From Bradyrhizobium diazoefficiens (lineage in GTDB: Bacteria > Pseudomonadota > Alphaproteobacteria > Rhizobiales > Xanthobacteraceae): DNA of 64,000 nt. Made by a program: the position numbers and the translations under genes. Positions 38,097 to 45,693 of this stretch are shown here, piece by piece (positions within the stretch are counted from its first letter, which is position 1; each line of letters starts with the position of its first letter). The stretch spans positions 372,001 to 436,000 of the forward strand of contig NZ_CP067041.1 of NCBI RefSeq assembly GCF_016599855.1, given 5' to 3'. The notes under the pieces were generated by a model, which had not been told where the DNA came from, did not search any database, and saw only the letters and a program-made list of their open reading frames with translations.

Positions 38097-39731
38097 TCAC
38101 ATCTTCGCGCGCTGGGCGATGTCGTCCTTGATCGATGCCAGCTCGGCCTCATCCCAGATGCCGATCAGAATGCCGCCCTTCACCTGCAGCTGGTTGTCGG
38201 CATAGTTCGCGATCTTCTCGCGCGGCGTGGTGATGTGGCCGCTCGGATGCAGCGCCCAGTCGAACAGCTCGGCCTGCAGCCGCGCGATGACGCCTGCGCA
38301 TTCAGGATCATCGCCGCGATCGACAAGTTCCTGCGGATCGGTTTCGAGGTCGTACAGCATCGGGCGGAAGCCGGAGGCGTGGATGTATTTCCAGCGGCCG
38401 TCGACCACCATGAACAGGCGGCAGCGCTCGATCGGCTGGTTCAGCTTCAGCCGCACATCCTGCATGGCGTAGTCGTATTCGGAGAACGCGACCTTGCGCC
38501 AATCGGGCGGGCTCTCGCCGCGCAGCAACGGCAGCAGCGAGCGTCCTTCGAGGATGTGGCCCGGCACCTTGCCGCCGAAATGATCGACGAAGGTCGGCGC
38601 CAGATCGATGCCTTCCACCAGTGCATCGCTGCGCGTGCCACGCGTCACGTCAGCTTCTTGCGAGGGATCGATGATGATCAGTGGGATTTTCGCGGACTGT
38701 TCGTGGAACAGATCTTTCTCGCCCATCCAGTGATCGCCGAGATAGTCGCCGTGATCGGAGGTGAACACGATCATGGTGGTTTCCGTGAGGCCGCGCGCCT
38801 CCAGGAATTTCATCAGCACGCCCATCTGGTCGTCGATCTGGGTGATCAGGCCCATATAGGTCGGGATCACCTTCTCGCGGGCGTCGTCGCGCGCCATGTT
38901 GCGGGAGTAGCGCATGTCCATGTAGGCGCCGAACACCGGATGCGGGTTCTTCCGCTCGCGCTCGGAGCGGATCACCGGAATCATGTCGTCCGTCGAATAC
39001 ATGCTGGCGTAAGGCTCCGGCGCGATGTAGGGCCAGTGCGGCTTGATGTAGGACAGATGCAGGCACCACGGCCTGCCGTCGGTCGCGGCCTCGCTGATGA
39101 AGTCCATCGCGCGGCGCGTCATGTAGGGCGTCTCGGAATGCTCGTCCGGCACACGCGCGGCCTTGTCGGCATGCACCAGCAGCCAGCCGTTCTGCAAGCT
39201 ACCATCATCGGCCGCGCCGGAATTGGCCCAATGCTCCCAGGGATTGGTGGCCTCGAATCCCTGCTGACGCAGATACTCGTCATATTTCGGGCGCGGTCGT
39301 CCCGTGGGATGCAGGCCGTCGTCGCGCTCATAGGGCTCAAAACCGCATTCGGCGACATGCACGCCGATCACTGATTCCGGCGGGATGCCGAGCGCCTTCA
39401 TGCCTTCGAGATCAGGGGCCATATGGGTCTTGCCGACCAGCACATTGCGCACGCCGATTTTCTTGAGATGATCGCCAAGTGTGGGCTCGCCGACACGCAG
39501 CGGCCAGCCGTTCCAGTGCGAACCGTGCGATCGCATGTAGCGGCCGGTGTAGAACGACATCCGCGACGGACCGCAGATCGGCGACTGCACATAGGCCTTC
39601 GAGAACAGCACGCCGCGCTTTGCCATAGCGTCGATGTTGGGCGTCTTCAGCGTGGGATGGCCGGTGCAGCCGAGATAATCATAGCGAAGCTGGTCGCACA
39701 TGATCCAGAGAACGTTCTTCGCCCGCGCCAT
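38097..39731 (-). CDS. Sulfatase / phosphonate monoester hydrolase family protein
   Basis: The 544-residue alkaline-phosphatase-superfamily hydrolase carries the maturation sequence ICGPSRMSFYTGR at about residues 52-64. The C-x-P-S-R core is where Cys becomes formylglycine. Metal-site segments MCDQLRYDYLG at the N-terminus and FTSDHGDYLGDH near residue 305 are present, as is HMAPD. The sequence feel is closer to rhizobial phosphonate monoester hydrolases and choline-sulfatase-like enzymes than to classical arylsulfatases, but the substrate cannot be fixed. No signal peptide is seen, so it is probably cytoplasmic. ATG 39731 has AGGGG six bases upstream. Confidence 0.9.
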   Translation of the reverse strand: MARAKNVLWIMCDQLRYDYLGCTGHPTLKTPNIDAMAKRGVLFSKAYVQSPICGPSRMSFYTGRYMRSHGSHWNGWPLRVGEPTLGDHLKKIGVRNVLVGKTHMAPDLEGMKALGIPPESVIGVHVAECGFEPYERDDGLHPTGRPRPKYDEYLRQQGFEATNPWEHWANSGAADDGSLQNGWLLVHADKAARVPDEHSETPYMTRRAMDFISEAATDGRPWCLHLSYIKPHWPYIAPEPYASMYSTDDMIPVIRSERERKNPHPVFGAYMDMRYSRNMARDDAREKVIPTYMGLITQIDDQMGVLMKFLEARGLTETTMIVFTSDHGDYLGDHWMGEKDLFHEQSAKIPLIIIDPSQEADVTRGTRSDALVEGIDLAPTFVDHFGGKVPGHILEGRSLLPLLRGESPPDWRKVAFSEYDYAMQDVRLKLNQPIERCRLFMVVDGRWKYIHASGFRPMLYDLETDPQELVDRGDDPECAGVIARLQAELFDWALHPSGHITTPREKIANYADNQLQVKGGILIGIWDEAELASIKDDIAQRAKM

Positions 39732-39824
39732 GCGTCGCCCCTGCATTTTCTTGATTGCTGGATGCTGCGCTATCGGGGGCGCGATGGCAACCCGCCGGTG
39801 ATGCGCACTAGGCCGGAACGACCG

Positions 39825-43644: not shown

Positions 43645-43668
43645 CGTTGTTTTCCTTCGTGTTCAATC

Positions 43669-43699
43669 CCGGCCTCGCGACTGAGAACGTCGGGGCCGG
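43669..43699. promoter_or_regulatory. Hairpin in the rplU leader
   Basis: CCGGCC (43669-43674) pairs with GGCCGG (43694-43699), with an inner CGAC/GTCG stem and a 7-nt loop. It lies about 25 nt upstream of the rplU start on the minus strand. On the plus strand it is followed by TTTTTG and so resembles a terminator for any transcript running the other way. Confidence 0.5.
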
Positions 43700-43974
43700 C
43701 TTTTTGTCAGTCGCTATAGGTTTATGCGCGTTTTGTGCGGGCGGGAGTTATCCCTTTGAAAACCCGCGCAAAAACAAGCGGCGCGAGAAACGCCCCGCGC
43801 CGGTTGTCGGACTTATAGCCGCAAGCCGCGGAGAGTCAAGGAAAACCGCCGAAACGGCCCGGATTTGAAGGATTTGGGCCATTTCCACGCTGGCCATGAA
43901 TCTGAGCCGGCGCTGCAACCAACGGGTTCCCGCACCGTTGTCCCCGCGAATTGGCATTTCGGGCACGGGTTTCC

Positions 43975-45117
43975 ATGGCGGCAACAGACGAACTGGTCAA
44001 GATAACGGGCATCGCCCAGCACGGGGCGAGCCGGCTGCCGTCGGTCGACGTCGACAGCTTCAACATCGAGATCAAGGACGACGAGGGCTTTCTTGGCGAC
44101 CGCGCCAGCAAGGGTGCGTTTCGCGAGATCCTCGAACGGTGGCGCAAGCCGCTCCGCAAGAGCGGCGAGGACCCGTTCGGCGACGAGCCATCCGACCGGA
44201 TCAGCAAGAAGACCCTCGATGCCGTTCTGGTCGGCGACGATACGGAGGCCACGGCCGTCGTGCACAGTGCGATCGAGGATTTCGCGCAGGAACTCGCTCA
44301 CGTCACGCGACGCTTCCTCAAGACCAAGGCCTGGGCGAAAACCGAGTGCATCGTGGTCGGCGGCGGCTTTCGCGCCAGCCGGATCGGCGAAATTGCCATT
44401 GCCCGGGCCGAGATCATCCTCAAATCGGAAGGCTTCAAGGTCGACATGGTGCCGATCCGCTCCGATCCGGATGATGCCGGCCTGATCGGAGCCGTGCACC
44501 TCGCGCCGTCCTGGATTTTCGAGGCCTATGACAGCATCCTCGCGGTCGATATCGGCGGCACCAACATCCGCTGCGGGATCGTCGAGACGCGCTGCAAGAA
44601 GGCGCCGGATCTGTCCAAGGCCGTGGTCTTCAAATCCGATTTGTGGCGCCACGCCGACGATGAGCCCAGCCGCGAAGCCGCAGTGAAGCGGCTGATCAAG
44701 ATGCTCCAAGGCCTCATCGAGGACGCCGAAGCCGAGGGATTCAAGCTCGCGCCCTTCATCGGCATCGCCTGTCCCGGCGTGATCAACGCGGACGGCTCGA
44801 TCGAGAAGGGCGCGCAGAACCTTCCGGGCAATTGGGAGAGCAGCAAGTTCAACCTGCCGGCGAGCCTGTGCGAGGCCATCCCCACCATCGGGGAGCACGA
44901 CACCGCGATCCTGATGCATAATGACGGCGTGGTTCAGGGCCTCTCCGAGGTGCCGTTCATGCAGGATGTCGAGCGCTGGGGCGTGCTCACCATCGGCACC
45001 GGCCTCGGCAATGCGCGCTTCACCAATCGCCGCAACGGCAAGGACCGGGACTCTACGGACGGGAAGAAGAAAACCAAAGAAAACAATAAGAACGGCCACA
45101 AGGGCGACAAGGAGTAA
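43975..45117 (+). CDS. ROK-family sugar-kinase-like protein with circularly permuted motif order
   Basis: This 380-residue protein has all the ASKHA/ROK sugar-kinase motifs except the zinc-binding one, but in an unusual order. Residues 85-175 resemble the C-terminal lobe of ROK proteins, with VGDD at 87-90, the adenosine motif VVGGG at 127-131, and DDAGLIGA at 166-173. The phosphate-1 motif VDIGGTN is only then seen at 191-197, followed by IACPGV (264-269), the catalytic-Asp context HNDG (D317) and the phosphate-2 loop GTGLGNA at 341-347. A Lys/Asn-rich tail ends the protein. The fold could therefore be a circular permutation that is still catalytically competent. The substrate is unknown. 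ATG 43975 is used, and the frame opens at TTG 43951. The gene is divergent from rplU. Confidence 0.88.
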   Translation: MAATDELVKITGIAQHGASRLPSVDVDSFNIEIKDDEGFLGDRASKGAFREILERWRKPLRKSGEDPFGDEPSDRISKKTLDAVLVGDDTEATAVVHSAIEDFAQELAHVTRRFLKTKAWAKTECIVVGGGFRASRIGEIAIARAEIILKSEGFKVDMVPIRSDPDDAGLIGAVHLAPSWIFEAYDSILAVDIGGTNIRCGIVETRCKKAPDLSKAVVFKSDLWRHADDEPSREAAVKRLIKMLQGLIEDAEAEGFKLAPFIGIACPGVINADGSIEKGAQNLPGNWESSKFNLPASLCEAIPTIGEHDTAILMHNDGVVQGLSEVPFMQDVERWGVLTIGTGLGNARFTNRRNGKDRDSTDGKKKTKENNKNGHKGDKE

Positions 45118-45603: not shown

Positions 45604-45693
45604 GGAGAGGTGGCAGAGTGGTTGAATGCACCGCACTCGAAATGCGGCATAGGTGCAAGCCTATCGGGGGTTCGAATCCCTCCCTCTCCGCCA
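45604..45693 (+). tRNA. tRNA-Ser (anticodon CGA)
   Basis: A 7-bp acceptor stem GGAGAGG / CCTCTCC is followed by discriminator G and an encoded CCA. The anticodon stem-loop is CCGCA-CTCGAAA-TGCGG with anticodon CGA (codon UCG). A long variable arm, as expected for serine, precedes the T arm GGGGGTTCGAATCCCTC. No integrase or repeat of the tRNA 3' end was seen nearby. Confidence 0.97.

Follow-up and report, generated by a model that had tools for sequence, protein, structure and literature searches.

Sugar kinases of the ROK family (PF00480), among them N-acetylmannosamine kinase (NanK), BglK, polyphosphate glucokinase and ROK glucokinase, carry in canonical order a phosphate-1 loop (DxGGT), an ND motif that provides the catalytic base, a phosphate-2 motif (GTGxG), a zinc motif (GH...CxCG...GCxE), and a C-terminal part with GGG and DAGLxGA segments; the ExGH and GCxE motifs hold the sugar. 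Here we consider a gene of Bradyrhizobium diazoefficiens whose product shares the DxGGT, ND, GTGxG, GGG and DAGLxGA motifs and the predicted fold, but has its segments circularly permuted, lacks the zinc motif and both sugar-holding motifs, and ends in a variable, charged tail. The gene (380 codons plus stop) occupies 43975..45117 on the forward strand of a 64,000-nucleotide stretch of contig NZ_CP067041.1, referred to below as the window; its ATG lies at 43975 and its stop ends at 45117, as given by the open reading frame translation and a Pfam match.

Two described systems are closest. Human GNE N-acetylmannosamine kinase (PDB 2yhy) and bacterial NanK (PDB 2aa4) are the nearest matches of the two halves, 2yhy by structure for residues 184-352 and 2aa4 by a weak sequence match for the N-terminal half, though both have the canonical order. 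The second is the trehalose pathway: the accessible part of one account of B. diazoefficiens has EcfG controlling otsA/otsB trehalose synthesis, with trehalose as the osmoprotectant (PMC8092242). OtsA/OtsB-GH15 clusters under EcfG resemble the surroundings of some of the more distant relatives of our gene, but the published accounts, in the parts available, name no such kinase, and the window copy has neither the promoter nor the neighbour. Existing records mostly call these proteins "ROK family protein", with some "Glucokinase" or "hypothetical protein". A search of the literature on permutation, in coverage that excluded most subscription journals, turned up no account of a permuted ROK kinase; as far as the available parts of two papers show, the ROK regulators they treat, one on pSymA (PMC6200981) and one tagged SMa2004 (PMC11387232), are different genes. 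The reading we favor, at a probability of roughly 60%, is that the gene encodes a circularly permuted ROK sugar kinase, most likely glucose-phosphorylating and tied to trehalose stress metabolism. Its parts differ in strength: the permuted fold is nearly certain, kinase activity is quite probable, and there is about an even chance that the substrate is glucose or close to it and that the enzyme serves trehalose metabolism.

Inverted order of the ROK segments

The motifs of the window protein run VGDD (residues 86-89), VVGGG (127-131), DDAGLIGA (166-173), VDIGGTN (191-197), IACPGV (264-269), D317 within HNDG, and GTGLGNA (341-347). The original prediction had placed a C-terminal-lobe block ahead of the phosphate-1 loop on the strength of these motifs; its coordinates stand throughout apart from VGDD, which it had put one residue too far along, at 87-90. 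Pfam ROK scores the protein at 31.2 bits against a cut-off of 22.9, summed from two stretches, the better of which aligns residues 189-351 with profile positions 2-141. The NCBIfam models show the inversion directly: residues 88-177 align with positions 206-286 of the 291-position NanK model, and also match the C-terminal end of BglK, and residues 188-353 align with the N-terminal part (positions 1-142) of several ROK kinase models. Weak phmmer matches in the PDB fall the same way, pairing 101-177 with NanK 207-286 (E 0.021; 2aa4, the best PDB sequence match of the N-terminal half) and 178-346 with residues 22-171 of a human N-acetylmannosamine kinase construct (E 0.044).

Profile-profile comparison employed an alignment of 37 members, drawn from 40 references, and its separate N- and C-terminal halves. 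Two entries identical to the window protein (L001, L049), one short frame (L026) and one near copy (L035, of L034) were omitted. The comparison set comprised 19 canonical ROK proteins of the same taxonomic order; a pattern had picked 20 of 30 canonical loci, from which L164 was dropped for its odd C-terminus. The N-terminal half aligns through residues 74-179 with ROK 204-302 (E 1e-5), and the C-terminal half through window residues 189-347 with ROK 7-141 (E 1.5e-5), complementary segments in inverted order. The corresponding DNA is 44194..44511 (+) for segment 74-179, which includes the GGG turn and DDAGLIGA and is assigned by profile-profile comparison, the NCBIfam NanK and BglK matches and the model of the N-terminal half, and 44533..45030 (+) for segment 187-352, which corresponds to the opening part of ROK (phosphate-1, CPG, QNLPGNW, ND with D317, and the phosphate-2 GTGLG).

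Left unrotated, the full family profile aligns to ROK through its N-terminal half only, a 97-column match scoring 43.6. Across 16 evenly spaced cuts, rotation brought no gain at ten (score 42-44; cuts 30-110 and 250-330), 57.7-59.0 at cuts 130, 210 and 230, and 68-70 at cuts 150 to 190; with cuts 180-190 a single alignment of 273-275 columns spans ROK 7-302 or nearly so. Since each ROK position is used once, this is a permutation, not a repeat fusion. The optimum places the join of the old C- and N-termini at about residues 176-187 (44500..44535, +). At the other end, the junction in the rotated alignment falls between GTGLGNARFTNR and the ExGH motif, with H16 facing W and G17 facing G of EWGH. 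When rotated, the window protein itself aligns with BglK in one continuous stretch (3-331 against 3-283); a HMMER control with a one-subfamily model did not separate the native and rotated orders.

Simple patterns find the order GGG, DxGG, GTGxG in all 277 aligned relatives, not one of which shows the canonical order that 19/19 canonical ROK proteins have; the relatives were retrieved with full-length permuted queries, and their common order is in part a product of that selection. Adding the DAGLxG segment cuts the count to 151 of 277, because the segment pattern is too narrow or the spacing varies.

These results bear on the possibility that there is no permutation at all, and that a truncated N-terminal piece of ROK has been fused to an unrelated domain at its N-terminus, or that the gene has decayed. 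Such a reading could draw on the isolated N-terminal half of the window protein, which has no Pfam ROK match, and on the profile of that half, which finds no meaningful sequence match in the PDB. However, 14 of the 37 isolated N-terminal halves match Pfam ROK independently by hmmscan at E up to 1 (best 2.8e-5), profile and model alike put this half on the part of ROK that is otherwise missing, and full-length members occur in many lineages, making the fusion or decay account highly improbable. Taken whole, 36 of the 37 members match Pfam ROK at E up to 10.

AlphaFold models agree with a permuted ROK fold, strongly for residues 184-352 and moderately for the N-terminal half. The closest structure to the model of 184-352 is 2yhy, at 24% identity in the aligned part, and the N-terminal half is placed on the part of ROK absent from the C-terminal half; together the predicted models give the two-lobe ROK shape. 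The suggestion that the protein may still fold as a kinase is thus upheld at the level of prediction, as is the permuted order from which it started, through the complementary half-profile matches and the rotation scan. With profile and model in accord, the permutation is well supported.

The ancestor would have been a ROK-family sugar kinase whose old termini were joined near residues 176-187 and whose new termini were created where the chain had run from the phosphate-2 strands into the ExGH/zinc segment, the zinc loop being lost. The chain would retain the two-lobe shape, with C-terminal strands 334-351 completing lobe II. This probably arose through a tandem duplication, or a fusion, whose outer parts were then lost; we saw no canonical-order or tandem intermediate, although no systematic search for one was made.

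A predicted active site without the zinc motif

Conservation was read across the 277 aligned members, which are near relatives of two queries (two sets) together with the 37-member alignment, a composition that overstates their independence. Invariant in all 277 are D192, G194, G195, N282, W287, N316, G341, T342, G343, G345 and the GGG at 129-131. D317 and D42 are each kept in 276, and H16 is identical in all 274 members that have a letter at that site. Within the 37-member alignment alone, which extends down to 47% identity, H16, D192, N316 and D317 are among the invariant positions. In terms of the ROK signature, the D, GG, N, D and GTG residues of phosphate-1, ND and phosphate-2 are present in 276-277 of 277, and the T of DxGGT is retained in 251 and replaced by S in 24.

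On the window these elements are the phosphate-1 loop VDIGGTN (191-197; 44545..44565, +) and the phosphate-2 motif GTGLG (341-345; 44995..45009, +), both placed by motif position and conservation, the latter near the new C-terminus, and the conserved N316-D317 (44920..44925, +), presumably the catalytic base by analogy with ROK kinases. ATP would be bound via DIGGTN and GTGLG, and D317 used for hexose phosphorylation. Beyond residue 352 the charged and variable tail (45031..45114, +) is modeled with low confidence (pLDDT, the model's per-residue confidence score, of 64, 49 and 50 in the last three ten-residue blocks).

The zinc motif had been reported missing from the window protein, and the family bears this out: none of four patterns finds it in any of the 277 permuted members. 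The loosest, GHx(5-25)CxCG, recovers 19/19 canonical proteins, and a stricter form, likewise 0/277 here, recovers 15/19. At the place of the zinc loop and GCxE, model and alignments put the third strand of lobe II (24-29) and GFLGDRAS (38-45), encoded at 44044..44109 (+). H16-G17 (44020..44025, +) aligns with the canonical ExGH motif by rotated profile alignment and conservation. H16 and D42 are candidates to take over the sugar-binding part that ExGH and GCxE no longer play, and in the proposed mechanism they would do so.

Loss of the zinc site and of the ExGH/GCxE ligands is also what might be expected of a catalytically dead fold whose function, like that of ROK regulators, is to sense sugars or sugar phosphates or to bind a partner. 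Such a role could also suit the Bradyrhizobium-type loci, where linkage to rplU is conserved and the stress promoter described below is absent. Against it, the catalytic aspartate and both phosphate motifs persist in 276-277 of 277 members, and Pfam detects no DNA-binding domain in the window protein. We regard a dead kinase as improbable and an active one as the better reading of this active site.

Distribution, neighborhood and stress promoter

Hundreds of bacterial genomes carry the gene, and many of these come from soil and plant-associated bacteria. A protein search returned at least 8000 relatives; among the 120 matches listed, at 88-95% identity, those with an organism name are Bradyrhizobium. 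In overlapping genome samples, full-length relatives (E below 1e-90) occur in 20 of 150 genomes at the level of the order, the window's own included (any match, 21), in 12 of 289 at that of the class (any match, 13) and in 16 of 299 at that of the phylum (any match, 28); the remaining 12 phylum genomes match about 179-353 only, the pattern expected of a canonical ROK. Across GTDB species genomes, at least 579 of at least 595 candidate stretches were confirmed as relatives, details resting on the best 80. Named distant members include Pseudoxanthomonas, Luteimonas, Lysobacter, Vulcaniibacterium and Stenotrophomonas; among 229 genomes of the class of a Pseudoxanthomonas-like genome, that genome alone has a full-length member, with weak partial matches in two others. 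Plasmids carry the gene in 207 of 72,556 records, mostly Rhizobium (111) and Sinorhizobium (79); S. meliloti 1021 has it on pSymB at 477077-478090.

Some individual records merit mention. A contig titled "Frankia sp. RB7" (JAUEPE010000043.1, L080) holds a Bradyrhizobium-type locus of rplU and permuted ROK gene at 81% identity, and that assembly is accordingly probably misnamed or contaminated. Two genomes of the window's genus, G618 and G602, have two full copies each (L034, L035, L198, L199); linkage to rplU is seen in L198 and L199, and the tree puts L034 on another branch than L198. Short fragments at 57% identity lie at G602:C151:167216-167341 (query 3-44) and G427:C38:1983-2210 (L033; query 285-360), and both genomes also hold full copies.

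Neighboring open reading frames (ORFs) around the relatives were called by a simple script, so some may be wrong, and those shorter than 100 residues were left out. In the window the permuted gene is divergent from rplU (ribosomal protein L21; 43255..43644, -) and has no otsB or other trehalose neighbor. Of the 80 named Bradyrhizobium/Rhodopseudomonas-type loci, 70 likewise have an opposed rplU, as do three of four further loci of the same family. In other lineages otsB is the commonest recurring neighbor: among 62 upstream ORFs, seven hits are to trehalose phosphatase and two to the GH15/trehalase-like pair. By tblastn, 10 of 35 loci below 73% identity contain otsB, and all 80 Bradyrhizobium/Rhodopseudomonas-type loci lack it. 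Those ten are Rhizobium-type (L130, L137, L189), Shinella (L135), Sinorhizobium chiapasense (L132), and members of families f20 (L170, L171, L195) and f2 (L168, L196). Eight adjoin the gene by coordinates or annotation, one has a single ORF between, and one, that of S. chiapasense, lies at the locus edge; annotated examples are R. johnstonii pRL10, Rhizobium N621 and Shinella. Fuller trehalose clusters occur as well: beside the f2 gene (L168) stands the series GH15 trehalase, otsA, PfkB kinase, otsB, and in f20 (L170, L195) otsB, GH15 and otsA lie on the divergent strand. The PfkB-type carbohydrate kinase frame of the former lies at L168:3405-4532, between otsA and otsB.

The printed EcfG consensus is GGAAC-N16-CGTT (PMC3892343, from the accessible part). 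Scanning with a spacer of 16 or 17, counting identical upstream stretches once and dropping L134 as a near copy of L136, we found the motif in 17 of 37 distinct upstream regions of members below 73% identity to the window protein, against 0.04 expected from first-order shuffles. A loose form, with G or C as the first base of the second box, raises this to 20 of 37; five of 37 carry the motif on the reverse strand. Background in a wider scan of flanking DNA is 0.010 per 360 bases of strand. The motif spans at least eight family groups (f1, f20, f24, f50, f118, f144, f173, f196), and in a tree of 46 members it is scattered, loose form included, over several branches; three rows from outside the class (L040-L042) are without it. 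Among members at 73% identity or more (Bradyrhizobium and kin) it occurs in one of 88, with 0.36 expected, the one being a copy on conjugative plasmid p195_2. Upstream of the window copy (43645-43975) a relaxed pattern gives no match on either strand. Of the more distant members examined, about half have the look of general-stress-response genes; in the window's lineage, where the gene sits next to rplU and lacks the stress promoter, its regulation may be different.

Two other features of the window may be recorded here. A tRNA-Ser (CGA) at 45604-45693 (+), downstream of the permuted gene, is the sole tRNA found in it, and 38097-39746 (-) encodes a PehA-like sulfatase/phosphoric ester hydrolase (323 bits) that falls under the cut-off of all four models matched.

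Substrate, pathway and significance

The best named model matches are all to sugar kinases: BglK, polyphosphate glucose phosphotransferase, ROK glucokinase and NanK. A permuted ROK kinase might nonetheless act on another substrate, such as an amino sugar or a sugar derived from trehalose or maltose, or replace ATP with polyphosphate. The N-terminal half does match NanK models, and the C-terminal half both polyphosphate glucose phosphotransferase and NanK; moreover, 25 of the 35 more distant loci have no otsB nearby, and neighbors vary, being an osmoprotectant-system M42 peptidase in S. meliloti and aldolase and threonate genes in Phyllobacterium. Yet every named subfamily match lies far under its cut-off, with none favored, and the most repeated neighbor is the trehalose-6-phosphate phosphatase. 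We consider a different substrate unlikely, if less so than a dead kinase.

For a glucose-phosphorylating enzyme, the simplest role would be to make glucose-6-phosphate that feeds trehalose-6-phosphate synthase (OtsA); alternatively, it may recapture glucose freed by the neighboring GH15 trehalase-like enzyme. The link to trehalose genes holds in some lineages, and a place in the pathway is what their neighborhoods suggest. The host genome also has an ordinary Glk and two further ROK matches. The open frames of these two run to 398 and 484 codons, a usual size for ROK regulators, and on that ground both would be such regulators. Given these genes, the permuted kinase could be redundant there.

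More broadly, and tentatively, the family may constitute a widespread clade of zinc-free permuted ROK kinases with a rebuilt sugar site, for which H16 and D42 are candidates, and much of the Alphaproteobacteria may use it as a stress kinase dedicated to the trehalose cycle. As part of the same tentative reading, this clade would be a natural permutation inside the sugar kinase/actin/Hsp70 fold. Current names hide both the permutation of the chain and the loss of the zinc site, a hallmark of ROK. A natural break inside the catalytic lobe indicates that the fold can accommodate new chain ends next to the active site, and makes the family a test case for how sugar specificity gets rebuilt. In the relatives, the stress promoter and trehalose neighbors point to a testable role in the osmotic and desiccation tolerance of nitrogen-fixing symbionts.
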